NCBI GenBank assembly: GCA_029863005.1 | Contig: JAOTWF010000005.1 | Coordinates: 1 to 64,000 of the forward strand | Direction: 5' to 3' | From: Gammaproteobacteria bacterium | GTDB taxonomy: Bacteria > Pseudomonadota > Gammaproteobacteria > Acidiferrobacterales > Sulfurifustaceae | DNA: 64,000 bases | In this document: positions 25,390-31,125 of the stretch, one piece after another | How positions within the stretch are numbered: the stretch's first letter is position 1 | Layout: each line of letters starts with the position of its first letter | Notes under the pieces: model-generated | What the model saw: the letters and a program-made list of their open reading frames with translations, nothing else | Databases searched by the model: none | What the model was told of the DNA's origin: nothing | Made by a program: the position numbers and the translations under genes

Positions 25390-27360
25390 GTGAACAGCCT
25401 CTGGAGCGACAGCGAGGCCGAGGCGTTTCCGGGTGACTTGGGGCAGCGTATCTACACCTCGCGCCTGCTCGGGCGCGAAAAATCCTTGGTGCTCCACGGC
25501 GGCGGCAACACCTCGGTCAAGGTCACGGAAAAAAACCTCCTCGGCGAGGACGAAACCCGGCTATACGTGAAAGGCAGCGGCTGGGACCTGGAGCACATTG
25601 AGGCCGCCGGGTTCTCGCCGGTGCGCATCGATCGGCTGCTCAAGCTCGCCAAGCTCAAGCAGCTCTCCGACCCGCAGATGGTGAATGAACTGCGCACGCA
25701 GATGACGCTGGCATCGGCACCTACGCCTTCGGTCGAGGCGATCCTGCACGCCATCCTCCCGTACCAGTATGTCGACCACACTCACGCCGACGCCGTGATC
25801 ACCATCACCAACACGGCCGATGGCCTGACGCGTATCCGCGAAATTTACGGCGATAATGTCGTTATCGTGCCCTATGTCATGCCGGGCTTTGATCTCGCGC
25901 GCCGTTGTGCCGAGCAGTTCGCCACCGACGTACGCAAGAACACGATTGGCATGGTGCTCATGAATCACGGGATATTTTCCTTCGGCAAGACCGCGCAGGA
26001 ATCCTACGAGCGCATGATCGATCTCGTGACGTGGGCGGAAAATTACCTCGCCAAGCAAAAAGCCTGGGTGCTGCCGGAATCGAGCGAAAAGCCGCAGGCT
26101 AAACCCCTGCGCCGGGAACTCGCGGCGCTGCGCCGCGATCTGTCCGTGACCGCGGGCTTCCCGGTTATCTTGGCGGCGCACGATGACCCCGCGAGCCTCG
26201 CCTTCGCGCGTCGCGACGACGTTGCCATCATCTCGCAACAGGGACCGGCCACCCCAGACCATGTGATCCGTACCAAACGTGTCCCGATGATTGGACGCGA
26301 CTCGAAGGCTTACGCCAAAGCGTACAAAAAATATTTCGATGAAAATTTACCGAAATCAACAGAGCCGAAGACCATGCTTGATCCCTCCCCGCGCGTGATC
26401 CTCGATCGCGAATTTGGCGTGGCCACGGCCGGGCGCAGCGCGAAGGACGCCGCCATCGTGTTCGACATCTATGCGCACACCATGGAGATCCTTCAGCGCG
26501 CGACTCTCCTCGGCGGCTATAAGGCCTTGCCGGCAAAGGATATTTTCGATGTGGAGTACTGGGACCTGGAGCAGGCCAAGCTCAAGGGCGCCGGCAAACC
26601 GCCGTTCGCGGGCGAGATCGCGCTCGTCACCGGTGCCGCCTCCGGCATCGGCAAGGCCTGCGTGGACTCGTTGCTCGCGCGCGGCGCGGCAGTGGTCGGA
26701 CTCGATATCAATGCTTCTATTTCGAGTTTGTACAACCGTCCGGATTATCTCGGCCTCGTTTGCGATGTGACGGATGAAAAGCAGTTGGCCGAGGCGCTGG
26801 AGAAAACCGCACGCACCTTCGGCGGGCTCGACATGCTAATCCTGAACGCCGGCATGTTCCCACCCGGTTGTCGCATCGATGCCTTGGGCACCGCGGAGTG
26901 GGGTAAGGTCATGCGGCTCAATCTCGATGCCAACCTGATGCTGATGCGCGAGGCACATCCGCTCCTGAAACTTGCGCCCAATGGCGGGTGCGTGGTGGTG
27001 ATTGGCTCGAAGAACGTCCCGGCGCCCGGTCCCGGCGCCGCGGCCTACTCGGCTTCCAAGGCCGCGCTCAATCAGCTCGCGCGCGTGGCGGCCTTGGAGT
27101 GGGGTGCCGACAACATCCGGATTAATTCTTTGCATCCGAATGCCGTGTTTGACACCGGTATCTGGACCGAGGAAGTGTTACAGACGCGCGCGAAACACTA
27201 CGGGCTCACGGTCGAGGAGTACAAAAGAAGAAATGTTTTGAAAACTGAAGTGACCAGCCGTGACGTGGCTGAACTGGCGGCCGAGATGTGCGGCCCGCTG
27301 TTTGCCAAGACCACTGCCGCGCAGGTGCCGGTGGATGGCGGGAATGAACGGGTGATTTGA
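25390..27360 (+). CDS. Bifunctional class II aldolase / short-chain dehydrogenase
   Basis: 656 aa; N-terminal class II aldolase (LHGGGNTSVK, DHTHADAVI, MNHGIFSFG); C-terminal SDR (VTGAASGIGKAC, YSASKAALNQLARVAALEWG). Confidence 0.93.
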   Translation: MNSLWSDSEAEAFPGDLGQRIYTSRLLGREKSLVLHGGGNTSVKVTEKNLLGEDETRLYVKGSGWDLEHIEAAGFSPVRIDRLLKLAKLKQLSDPQMVNELRTQMTLASAPTPSVEAILHAILPYQYVDHTHADAVITITNTADGLTRIREIYGDNVVIVPYVMPGFDLARRCAEQFATDVRKNTIGMVLMNHGIFSFGKTAQESYERMIDLVTWAENYLAKQKAWVLPESSEKPQAKPLRRELAALRRDLSVTAGFPVILAAHDDPASLAFARRDDVAIISQQGPATPDHVIRTKRVPMIGRDSKAYAKAYKKYFDENLPKSTEPKTMLDPSPRVILDREFGVATAGRSAKDAAIVFDIYAHTMEILQRATLLGGYKALPAKDIFDVEYWDLEQAKLKGAGKPPFAGEIALVTGAASGIGKACVDSLLARGAAVVGLDINASISSLYNRPDYLGLVCDVTDEKQLAEALEKTARTFGGLDMLILNAGMFPPGCRIDALGTAEWGKVMRLNLDANLMLMREAHPLLKLAPNGGCVVVIGSKNVPAPGPGAAAYSASKAALNQLARVAALEWGADNIRINSLHPNAVFDTGIWTEEVLQTRAKHYGLTVEEYKRRNVLKTEVTSRDVAELAAEMCGPLFAKTTAAQVPVDGGNERVI

Positions 27361-27545
27361 ATCCGTGTAACCCACCTGGTGCTTATGCAAGCAATCTTGA
27401 GCCTCCCATGTCGTGTTTTTTATTTTTAATATTTGAGGTACAGAAGTTTATAACTATATGAAATATAAAGATCTATTATGATTTGTAACTCCGATATACA
27501 GTATTATGCTGCTTTGTAAAACGACATTTAGGTCGTCTAATTCTA

Positions 27546-27552
27546 GTTAGGC
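27546..27552 (+). other. Integron recombination core site GTTAGGC (left cassette boundary; attI or attC 3' core)
   Basis: Exact match to GTTRRRY, located 6 bp upstream of the first cassette ORF start (TTG 27559). Confidence 0.6.
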
Positions 27553-27558
27553 CTTGAT

Positions 27559-27993
27559 TTGAGCATCGTCGATATTTTCGAGAGATTTGCCGCGGATTTT
27601 GAGGACGCCGTACGAGATGACAATTGGCTGCGGCTAGAGAAATACTTCGCAAAGGACGCCACATATTTGAACCTTGGAGGGCCAGACCCGAAATGTATGG
27701 GTCGTGACGCGATACTGGCTTATTTCAAAAAGGACGTTACAAACACCGACCGGAAATTCGACTCTCGTACTCTCGTTGCCATTTCGCCGCCTGTCGCCGA
27801 CGGAGATTTTCTATCTCGCGAATGGCGCTGCACATATACGCTCAATGGCGTTCCTGACCTTGTTCTTGAAGGGGAATCCAGGTATCTGTTTGAGAATAAG
27901 CTTATTAAGTCACTTGAAGTGGAACTTACAGAGGACTCAATGCAAACGCTAGACAGCTGGATGCGGGAAAACGGTGACAAGCTACAAATCTAA
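27559..27993 (+). CDS. NTF2/SnoaL-like small protein (cassette 1)
   Basis: 144 aa; IFERFAADFEDAVRDDNWLRLEKYFAKDATYLNLGGPDPKCMGRDAILAYFKK is typical of NTF2-like/SnoaL folds. Confidence 0.8.
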   Translation: MSIVDIFERFAADFEDAVRDDNWLRLEKYFAKDATYLNLGGPDPKCMGRDAILAYFKKDVTNTDRKFDSRTLVAISPPVADGDFLSREWRCTYTLNGVPDLVLEGESRYLFENKLIKSLEVELTEDSMQTLDSWMRENGDKLQI

Positions 27994-28017
27994 TGTCCGA
28001 CATACGTTACGGTACAG

Positions 28018-28104
28018 GCCTAACAAGGCGCTGCAGCGGACGCGGATAAGCGTTGGCTGCTTTCCTTGGCGATCCATCCGCGCCGCTGAGCGTGGTCGTT
28101 GGAA
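28018..28104 (+). mobile_element. attC-like site 1
   Basis: R'' GCCTAAC (28018-28024, exact RYYYAAC); arm GGCGCTGCAGCGGACGCGGAT (28027-28047) pairs with ATCCGCGCCGCTGAGCG (28076-28092) leaving extra bases in the 5' arm; 3' core GTTGGAA (28098-28104, 6/7 of GTTRRRY). Confidence 0.75.
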
Positions 28105-28205
28105 GTCAGATCAAATTGCGCGCTGAGATAAATTCTGCAAAGGCTCTATTTGGTGCCCAATTGAAGCACGATGCCCGCCCGCGGGTGAACGGCGTCAGCA
28201 GGGGG

Positions 28206-29132
28206 ATGCCATCACACTGGCTTTTCTGGGTGTTCTTGATCCTGCTCGTTACATCGACACAGGAAGCGAGTTCTCAGGCGAGTGGCAGCAACACTTATGC
28301 TGATCTCGCGCCTATCCTCGTCCAGCGCTGCGTGATGTGCCACTCAGGCGATGCGGCTCCTCTTGGTCTGCGCCTGGACAATTTCGAATCGGTGTTGAAG
28401 GGAAGCACCAGAGGCCCAGTGGTAAAAGCGGGTGATCCTTCGGGTAGTGAGCTTATTCGACGTCTTAAGGGTATCAGCCAGCCACGCATGCCAATGACCG
28501 GGCCGCCGTTTTTGTCCGACAGCGAAATCGCCCTTTTCGAGCGTTGGGTGACCGCCGGGTTGCCCAGGGGCGGCGTTGCACAGGATGCGCCCCCTTCTAA
28601 GCCGACGACTCTGCGACCCGAGGCAGGTCAAGCGGTCACGTATCTCCATGTTGCACCGATCTTGGCCACTCGTTGCTCCAAGTGCCATGCCGAGAAAGGC
28701 TTGATGGGTGCCGCACCGGAAGGTTATCGGCTGACTTCATATGATTCGACACTCTCGACGGCTGATCGTGTGCGCGTGGTTCCTGGAAAGCCAGACGCCA
28801 GCGAACTGGTTCGGCGCATTCGTGGCCAGGCACTTCCCAGAATGCCCTTCGACGGCCCGCCGTATCTTTCCAATGACGAGATTCGCCTGATGGAAGCCTG
28901 GGTCGCACAAGGCGCACGCGATGCCAACGGCAAGGTCGCGCCCAACCCGACCGGCGCCGCCGTGCGCCTGCACGGAACGCTGCGATCGGGATGGCGATTG
29001 GATGGCCTTGATCTGGACATCGGTGCGCACACCCGTATCGACAAGTCGCCAAAGTCGGGGGACTTCGTTGAGGTCCGCGGTCGTCTGGACGAGGCCGCGA
29101 ACATCAAGGTCGAGCGGCTCAGACGACGGTGA
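28206..29132 (+). CDS. Exported diheme cytochrome c (planctomycete-cytochrome-like repeats) with C-terminal DUF5666-like region (cassette 2)
   Basis: Signal peptide MPSHWLFWVFLILLVTSTQEASSQA; RCVMCH and RCSKCH heme motifs in two homologous modules. ORF track start 28053 lies inside attC1; ATG 28206 is in frame and has the signal peptide. Confidence 0.85.
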   Translation: MPSHWLFWVFLILLVTSTQEASSQASGSNTYADLAPILVQRCVMCHSGDAAPLGLRLDNFESVLKGSTRGPVVKAGDPSGSELIRRLKGISQPRMPMTGPPFLSDSEIALFERWVTAGLPRGGVAQDAPPSKPTTLRPEAGQAVTYLHVAPILATRCSKCHAEKGLMGAAPEGYRLTSYDSTLSTADRVRVVPGKPDASELVRRIRGQALPRMPFDGPPYLSNDEIRLMEAWVAQGARDANGKVAPNPTGAAVRLHGTLRSGWRLDGLDLDIGAHTRIDKSPKSGDFVEVRGRLDEAANIKVERLRRR

Positions 29133-29166
29133 ACTTCATTCTCATGCGCGCAAGGTGAATCATGGC

Positions 29167-29230
29167 TTTCAACTTTTCGCTTCACGCGGACGCGCGGCAA
29201 GCCGCGCGCCGGTGAGCTCTGGCATTAGCC
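29167..29230 (+). mobile_element. attC-like site 2
   Basis: TTTCAAC (29167-29173, 6/7 of RYYYAAC); CGCTTCACGCGGACGCGCGGC (29178-29198) pairs with GCCGCGCGCCGGTGAGCT (29201-29218) with extrahelical bases in the 5' arm; 3' core ATTAGCC (29224-29230, degenerate). Confidence 0.65.
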
Positions 29231-29248
29231 ACCAATAAAGGCACAGCC

Positions 29249-29709
29249 ATGCGCTGCACACGAATGATATTAGCTTGCCTACTTACCATTTTTTCGCTGG
29301 GTGCAGATCCGGTTCGCCATCACTTGTTGATATATCCTGGAAATCATTGGAGGTAGAGTATTGCCTACCCTCTGGTGAAACGAAAACATGGAGGAGCACA
29401 GATTCCGCTGAGCTGGAAGTGCTCAGGGCATCGATGCAACCGCAAAGACCTCAAGGACTGACCATGCTTTTAAAAAGCTATACCAATGAGCTGCGGTTGG
29501 GGCTTAGTTCCGGCCAAGCGTGGAACCTTTACTATCGAGACAAACATAACCGCATTACCTTTTTTGACCCGAACAACATCAATCAGTCTTTCGTGGTTGG
29601 TATTTCTGGCGATCTGTATTCTGAGCTCTCTAAGCGCCTTGTCACTCACGGAGGCAGTGCAATTGCATTAGACGGAAGCTGTCGTATTCCCGAAATGGCT
29701 GGCAAGTAG
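29249..29709 (+). pseudogene. Unknown exported protein, probably frameshifted (cassette 3)
   Basis: ATG 29249 encodes the secretory N-terminus MRCTRMILACLLTIFSLGADP in one frame; the body (SLVDISWKSLEVEYCLPSGETKTW...SCRIPEMAGK) continues in the neighbouring frame (ORF 29275-29709). One missing nucleotide near the T6 run would join them. Confidence 0.5.
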
Positions 29710-29712
29710 TGT

Positions 29713-29772
29713 GACTAACCATTGCTCGGAGTGGACGGCAATAGCGCCGCCCGCTCAGGAACAATGTTAAGG
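29713..29772 (+). mobile_element. attC-like site 3
   Basis: GACTAAC (29713-29719, 6/7 of RYYYAAC); CATTGCTCGGAGTGGACGGC (29720-29739) pairs with GCCGCCCGCTCAGGAACAATG (29746-29766); 3' core GTTAAGG (29766-29772, 6/7). Length 60 bp. Confidence 0.7.
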
Positions 29773-29842
29773 CACGCTCAATACCTCCGACCTATGCCAA
29801 GTTTGGCTGGATCTGGAATCCGACTCGAAGTTCACAATCGTC

Positions 29843-30613
29843 TTAATTAGCCACGCCACGCAGCAAGCTATTTTTTGTACCCACTTCGCGCATCTGAGCG
29901 CATTGCGCGCCGGTGAGCCGCGTGTTTTCCGGTGCCGTCTCCGCTCGCATTAAATTGCCCGGCCGTTCGATGTGTTCGCCGCTGTCCGTCAGGACATGCA
30001 CGAGTTCGTGGGTAAGGGCAATGCCCACGTCGCGCGTGGCGCGCGTCACCCACACGCTGTCGGTGAGTTCCGGGCGTGTTTGGCTGTTGCCCCGGCCAAT
30101 GGCCTCGGCGTCAAAGGCCGGCTGGTGGCGGGTGTCGGCCACGAAATACACCGTGGGCCTGGCAAGCTGCAGGGTACGCGCCAGCTCGCGTGATACCGGT
30201 GTATCGAGATAATGATAACGCTGCGGCGCATCGACTCGCACGAGCTCGACCTGCCGCAGTAGCAGGCCGCACTGCTCCAGTATTTCTGCGACATTGCGAA
30301 CTGCTTCTTCCATGGTTTCGCGTGGCCAGTCGCTGCCGGTGAAATAAACCAGCGTCAGCGTCAGTTGATGCGTCGGGTTGTCCCGTGCTGGGCTGCGGTG
30401 GTAAATCTGCTCCGCCGCCAGGGTGTATCGTTCCACCACCTTGATCTTTATCGTTTCCTGCGCAACTGCCGGACTGAGAATCAGCGCGGATCCCAAAATC
30501 AAGGCGAGCAAGCGAAAACGTAGCCTCATCGGTGGAAAGCTGGTAGGAATATTCATCACCGGCAAGCCGTGGATTCGTCTTGCGCGTAAATGATGTGCGG
30601 ATTTCGTGGACAC
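29843..30613 (-). CDS. Putative exported zinc metalloprotease-like protein
   Basis: 256 aa; signal peptide (MRLRFRLLALILGSALILSPAVAQ) and HExxH motif in GIALTHELVHVLTDSGEH. Confidence 0.6.
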   Translation of the reverse strand: MSTKSAHHLRARRIHGLPVMNIPTSFPPMRLRFRLLALILGSALILSPAVAQETIKIKVVERYTLAAEQIYHRSPARDNPTHQLTLTLVYFTGSDWPRETMEEAVRNVAEILEQCGLLLRQVELVRVDAPQRYHYLDTPVSRELARTLQLARPTVYFVADTRHQPAFDAEAIGRGNSQTRPELTDSVWVTRATRDVGIALTHELVHVLTDSGEHIERPGNLMRAETAPENTRLTGAQCAQMREVGTKNSLLRGVAN

Positions 30614-30702
30614 TGTCAGACCAATGGAGAAACAATAAGGGAAAGAGATATTTTTAATAGTTCAGCTCGTGCTATGTAATGTCGACACGTTTCTGCTAAC
30701 GC

Positions 30703-31125
30703 TCAACCAGCAATTTTTCCTGCCCAATCCAAAATTACCTGCACGCGCGGCACCAGCAGCCCCCGTGCCGCGTCGTATTCCATCCAGCGAAATTCCTCAT
30801 GCTCCGGCTTGCCGAGTTCCTCCGTGACGGGCAGAAAGACCTCCCCCGTGGGCGATTCCGCGAAATAATAGCGCGCGATCTTGTTCTTGCCGTAGGGCTC
30901 GGTTTCGATGAAGCCATGACCCCAGCGGAAATTGAGACCGGTCAGCGTGGTTTCTTCCTCGACCTCGCGGATTGCCGCCGCCAGCGGGTCTTCGCTGGGC
31001 TCGACTATGCCCTTGGCAAAATCCCAGTAATCACGCACACGCAGCAGCAGGTAACGGTACCGGTCATCGAAGCGCCGAACAACGACAACGCCGGCGGAAA
31101 GGGTGGGCGGGGCATTCATGCTCAT
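30703..31125 (-). CDS. NUDIX hydrolase (diadenosine tetraphosphatase-like)
   Basis: 140 aa; Nudix box GIVEPSEDPLAAAIREVEEETTLTG. Confidence 0.9.
   Translation of the reverse strand: MSMNAPPTLSAGVVVVRRFDDRYRYLLLRVRDYWDFAKGIVEPSEDPLAAAIREVEEETTLTGLNFRWGHGFIETEPYGKNKIARYYFAESPTGEVFLPVTEELGKPEHEEFRWMEYDAARGLLVPRVQVILDWAGKIAG

Follow-up and report, generated by a model that had tools for sequence, protein, structure and literature searches.

How did three gene cassettes come to lie, in a single orientation and with no integrase gene beside them, between two core genes of a bacterial chromosome, and are they still able to move? The array in question is found in the window (by which the whole 64-kb stretch of DNA analyzed is meant), and a preliminary description had labeled it "CALIN-like", leaving its origin between a relic of a larger integron and an off-site insertion of cassettes. 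The reading favored here, to which a probability of roughly 0.8 is given, is that 27361-29772 is an integron platform that has lost its own intI, that the attI platforms of the genus are served in trans, and that the array in the window is probably frozen.

The Array and Its attC Sites

An exact GTTAGGC core at 27546-27552 is followed by three same-strand units, each made of an ORF and an inverted repeat, as had been noticed from the sequence, and an independently built attC model singles out the same places: covariance model R1, derived from 24 sites of the intI-linked arrays of relatives only (the window sequence being excluded), has its top three matches in the 64-kb window at attC1, attC2, and attC3, all on the + strand. 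attC1 (28018-28104, 87 bp) scores 54.2 bits (E 1.6e-10 over 579 kb) and attC2 (29167-29230, 64 bp) 33.8 bits (E 2.7e-5 over 579 kb; 3e-6 in the window alone); it is only the weak attC3 (29713-29772, 60 bp; 11.6 bits, E 1.4 in the window), and not all three sites, that scores near background, yet it sits at the predicted position and folds well. The bottom strands of the three fold better than shuffles (z = -2.6, -3.4, and -3.1, respectively), and their 3' core sites read GTTGGAA (28098), ATTAGCC (29224), and GTTAAGG (29766), that of attC2 carrying a mutation of the cleaved G to A (GTT to ATT).

With the cassette limits set from the core sites, cassette 1 (27547-28098, + strand) contains a TTG-started ORF (27559-27993) for a SnoaL/NTF2-like protein (Pfam PF12680, E 4.4e-7), cassette 2 (28099-29224, + strand) encodes an exported two-heme cytochrome c (PSCyt1, E 7.9e-18; motifs CVMCH and CSKCH), whose coding frame is most likely the ORF 28206-29132 with its ATG and signal peptide, and cassette 3 (29225-29766, + strand) contains an ORF (29275-29709) for an unknown protein that had no match in a Pfam search; Pfam and the motifs thus bear out the functions proposed earlier. 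Among the ATG codons of cassette 3 (window 29249-29300), the best one with a lipoprotein-like signal, at 29249, does not share the frame of this ORF, which suggests a frameshift or a sequencing error.

An Insertion between Two Core Genes

The left host gene is a core gene for an aldolase-II/short-chain dehydrogenase fusion (25390-27360, + strand; Pfam), conserved in the genus, with full-length, 82-90% identical orthologues in G011, G012, and G015-G018 and partial ones at contig ends in others, and the right host gene is a core NUDIX hydrolase gene (30703-31125, - strand; Pfam). That the block interrupts conserved chromosome, as had been claimed, is confirmed by G009 and G012, in which the whole stretch 27361-30712 is missing and the two genes are merely 31 and 109 bp apart, respectively. 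Cassette-type insertions are present at this aldolase-NUDIX locus (hereafter locus A) in the window genome (G000), G015, G016, G017, and G018, and their contents differ.

Both boundaries given in the preliminary description have to be moved outward. The left one had been placed at 27546, and the real one is at or just past the aldolase stop codon (27360); the right one had been placed at about 29766, and conserved chromosome restarts at about 30713, in the NUDIX gene. Between the array and the latter lies a non-conserved segment (29773-30702) with an HExxH metalloprotease-like gene (29843-30613, - strand; no match in a Pfam search) that had been taken for the chromosomal flank; it is present in just 2 of the 20 genomes of the family, G004 alone having a homologue, and is therefore not the conserved flank, which leaves the NUDIX gene as the right boundary. 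As no attC above background was found to the right of this segment with R1 in the 64-kb window, it is not assignable to a cassette.

An attI in Front of the First Cassette

The first cassette is preceded by a full attI homologue. Profile R2, built from 13 attI modules (the window copy is itself one of the 13 rows), assigns 92.7 bits (E 3.1e-26) to 145 bp at 27407-27551 (+ strand), and, independently of R2, 27406-27552 is 74% identical over 147 bp to the intI-proximal attI of G011, a close relative with a complete genome, i.e., the region between its intI and first cassette (E 2.7e-16). The conserved attI core (27493-27552, + strand) ends in the GTTAGGC core site. Module alignments place the right half of a LexA (SOS) box, ATATACAGTA, at 27494-27503; its left half is eroded in the window, whereas the intI-linked copy of G011 and the locus A copy of G015 retain the complete CTGT-N8-ACAG. 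The locus A copies of G015 and G018 cluster with the intI-linked attI of G011 (support 0.95-0.98). When the module was scanned for promoters, the window copy showed no + strand sigma-70 site across its attI region, and because of this no Pc promoter is claimed for it. In the module alignments, the attI core half (ATGTCGCTTTATAAA..TTTAGGTCGTCTA) seems to recur, as a degenerate direct repeat, at the left end of the module (ATGTCGTGTTTG..TTAGGCGGTACTAAAA); these might perhaps be accessory IntI sites.

The gap between the aldolase stop codon and the module (27361-27406) probably holds a decayed 5' end of intI, the coding strand of which would be the - strand: its 46 bp can be aligned colinearly with the start of G011 intI, Shine-Dalgarno region and first codons included, an alignment that shuffles find significant in the window genome (local p 0.005; anchored p about 0.007) and, at the same locus, in G015 (p about 0.017). 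At other module loci, where the module may lie as close as 5-7 bp to the upstream stop codon, no significant remnant was found, save for a Shine-Dalgarno-like C-rich tract. Loss of intI in place is hence put forward for the window locus only, where, short as the remnant is, it is probable: the locus would have been a small chromosomal platform of attI plus three cassettes, once with its own integrase beside the aldolase gene, from which the integrase would have been lost and the attI kept.

These observations bear directly on whether the array is a "plain" CALIN, i.e., cassettes inserted off-site at non-classical attG sites with no involvement of an attI. The operational definition of a CALIN, at least two attC sites and no intI, does describe the array, which has sites of 54.2 and 33.8 bits next to the weak third (11.6 bits) and no integrase gene nearby, and attC clusters lacking a detectable module exist elsewhere, e.g., in G011 at 817 kb, 1336 kb, 2094 kb, and 2233 kb. 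However, attG insertion brings only cassettes, neither an attI nor a 5' remnant of intI, and should leave a left junction devoid of attI with a short G-T-type target, which is not what the window array displays; the attI homologue ahead of the first core site therefore speaks against off-site insertion, making this explanation very improbable, and for the integron relic, which is the half of the earlier alternative that stands, with the colinear intI 5' end on the same side. As for the features of a complete integron, an attI adjoining the first cassette and same-orientation cassettes, each with an attC (the third being marginal), are all present, and the intI is not, apart from its probable 46-bp remnant.

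The Missing Integrase

The claim that the window has no integrase extends to the whole genome: no frame passes the IntI cut-off in the 64-kb window or in the 2.45 Mb, 95%-complete assembly, in which the Phage_integrase matches are limited to two frames, both Xer-like. Contig 47 of the same genome contains a second lexA gene (lexA2) without its first 36 codons, after which come a 120-bp attI-like stretch, 72% like that of G017, and four attC sites, but no intI. As lexA2 is linked to intI in G011, G016, and G017, contig 47 is most likely a former intI locus, and the window genome, to go by its draft assembly, has most likely lost its integrase, with its lexA2 retained in 5'-truncated form. In the three relatives, intI lies directly upstream of lexA2 in one operon behind a LexA box (G011, L045:13594-15260; G016, contig C278; G017, contig C16), and lexA2 is about 36% identical to the core LexA. 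Since the other integron locus of the window genome is thus without intI as well, the window array is probably frozen and decaying now, as its mutated attC2 core and weak attC3 also suggest; a second intI could be hidden in the missing 5% of the assembly.

attI-Headed Platforms Elsewhere in the Genus

The attI module recurs at several further loci in the genus and family, usually in 2-4 copies per genome, most of which head cassettes of their own, and among the strong copies only one adjoins an intI. The window genome has copies on C26 (the window contig), C45, and C90; G011 (probably Sulfuricaulis limicola) has one beside intI at 435 kb and others without intI at 1981, 2181, and 2590 kb; G015, G017, G018, and G012 have two each, G007 one, and G016 one clear and one weak copy. 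At the orphan loci examined, tblastn found no intI. Same-strand attC sites following orphan modules number seven at locus B of G011, three at locus B of G018, two each at loci A and C of G015, and one in others. Locus B lies behind a Vgb-like lyase gene (G000, G011, and G018), locus C behind a ksgA or HlyIII gene (G011, G015, G016, and G017), and locus E behind a TPR-like gene (in G007 and on one contig from a metagenome). G013 has locus C in the empty state, with 2 bp between the convergent neighbors. In this genus the same attI module heads cassette arrays at several chromosomal sites.

At most loci the layout is that of an ORF followed by the module, which, where the left gene is clear, begins 5-112 bp past the stop codon of a same-strand gene. 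Might the module, then, have moved as a unit, alone or together with its upstream gene as an "attI-type cassette", without an intI ever having been at the window locus? The 5-112 bp spacing is reminiscent of attC sites in cassettes, the upstream genes of loci B and C (Vgb-like lyase and HlyIII) occur in the genus only alongside the module, with the exception of locus C of G011, which has the module without HlyIII, and cassettes with a truncated attI, present in class 1 arrays, are known to be recombined by IntI1 (PMC12901181). Yet the upstream gene in the window is a core gene found in all genus members, intI-like remnants intervene between it and the module, and a free or circular module is not known; movement as a unit is accordingly held to be unlikely, if the most serious of the competitors to a platform that lost its intI in place.

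R2 matched nothing at E<=1e-4 in 48 genomes that belong to the order but not to the genus, G007 excepted, and no R2 module lies beside the intI of G013, G014, or G017; the intI-linked attI of further family members have diverged, and still share a GTCTA..CTAGTT-like core. The intI-linked attI of G017 is unlike the modules, and a species may thus have an IntI that does not match its module. A pattern scan of 85,000 species genomes returned 13 contigs, among which R2 confirmed those from Sulfuricaulis/Muproteobacteria MAGs, one Centralia Gammaproteobacteria MAG, and one "Armatimonadota" bin, the last coming from a sample that also gave a Sulfuricaulis MAG. The remaining contigs, which R2 did not confirm, look like chance matches, and one viral contig with a pattern match had neither R2 nor attC support.

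The genus is, besides, unusually rich in dispersed cassettes: in addition to the G011 clusters already named, G015 has attC clusters with no detectable module on contigs C4, C5, C9, C13, C16, C20, C23, C24, and C30, with up to about 14 such loci and no intI, 99% complete as this genome is.

Cassette Exchange and Constraint

Orphan array B and the intI array of G011 have two segments in common, 405 and 628 bp long and 100% identical, which in the intI array are cassettes 1 and 2, the identity beginning and ending at GTT core sites; in array B another cassette separates the two. The two arrays have recently traded cassettes, and the exchange bears the mark of IntI having moved cassettes from one to the other in either direction (excision or insertion in trans), lending indirect support to attI x attC recombination by IntI. 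IntI made elsewhere in the same cell would, in the mechanism proposed, remove cassettes from intI-less platforms in trans, and would probably also insert them there, insertion at an orphan attI being the more conjectural of the two steps. Across species, the first cassette behind the orphan attI at locus C of G017 is 81% identical over 280 bp to a cassette of G009, a member of another genus, in which it is the first behind the intI-linked attI.

Orphan attI cores are 85-91% identical between species vs. 57-70% at 4-fold sites of the aldolase gene. For the window core against the locus A copies of G015, G017, and G018, the figures are 85-88% vs. 57-67% (Fisher p 0.003 to 3e-5 for the three pairs with the window genome, which are not independent of one another); gene conversion between copies could account for part of this high identity. 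The locus A copy of G016, with 69% core identity and no attC found, shows what an unconstrained attI looks like.

Such decay is what one would look for if the array were a dead relic, i.e., an old integron without intI that was never active in trans, the species differences stemming from deletion and decay of one large ancestral array; the mutated attC2 core, the weak attC3, and the lost LexA half-site of the window copy fit this as well. It is nevertheless rather improbable, as the cassettes of the orphan and intI arrays in G011 are identical up to the core sites, the attI cores are conserved beyond the 4-fold sites, and no cassette common to two species at the same locus was found by tblastx at the shared loci. 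A platform that lost its intI and belonged to a set served in trans is preferred over it. The wider notion of a "distributed integron", in which one integrase would serve several attI platforms scattered along the chromosome, each behind a host gene of its own and with a separate cassette array, cassettes would circulate in trans, and platforms would outlive their own intI, might with equal justice be affirmed or doubted at present.

Relation to Known Integrons

CALINs occur about as often as complete integrons and, on one proposal, derive from them by degradation (PMC9024848); they are seen either as such remains or as trans-mobilizable cassette clusters (PMC9024848, PMC12444791). The window array resembles them in being chromosomal, in having a few attC-bearing cassettes and no neighboring intI (PMC9024848), and in occupying a locus common to several species, as CALINs of Xanthomonas do (PMC12444791), but differs in having its own attI ahead of cassette 1 and a probable intI remnant. 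Such attI heads would be invisible to IntegronFinder, since it detects no attI outside class 1; beyond that class, attI sites are poorly described and are not looked for (PMC9024848). The ilvD-locus integrons of Xanthomonas are similar as ancestral sedentary integrons that often lost intI while cassettes remained, with additional cassette clusters elsewhere in the chromosome (PMC12444791); theirs, however, is one ilvD platform, with CALINs not reported to have an attI, whereas several attI-headed platforms per genome are seen here. The delta-attI cassettes of class 1 (PMC12901181) likewise have an attI away from intI and yet used by IntI, though in them a truncated attI replaces the attC in a mobile array, while here an approximately 145-bp module heads chromosomal arrays.

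The closest counterpart is the sedentary chromosomal integron of Sulfuricaulis (G011) with its intI-lexA2 operon, which has the same attI module and attC type and shares cassettes between its intI array and an orphan array; the window copy differs in lacking intI and a complete LexA box. In a literature search of partial coverage, no account came up of a genome with more than one attI-headed array; the arrangement is best seen as an integron with several platforms served in trans. If some CALINs were indeed attI-headed platforms still trading cassettes in trans, integrons would not necessarily be single-locus devices, and one integrase could add new genes downstream of several host genes. As a natural test set for this, the genus offers species that have intI and species that lack it, loci in common, sites that are empty, and one complete genome in which an exchange is recent.

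Other Insertions at the Same Loci

Beyond the inserted genes, the host gene at the flank has its 3' end repeated in part in G015 (L058:5023-5098), G018 (L062:1279-1354), and G017 (L089:9228-9410), the genes concerned being the aldolase gene at locus A and a plsC-like gene at locus C. The locus A insert in G015 and G018 is a YefM/RelE-like gene pair, followed in G015 by a large restriction/defense-like island. Another type of element, by which the 3' ends of genes are restored, seems to be using the same hotspots.
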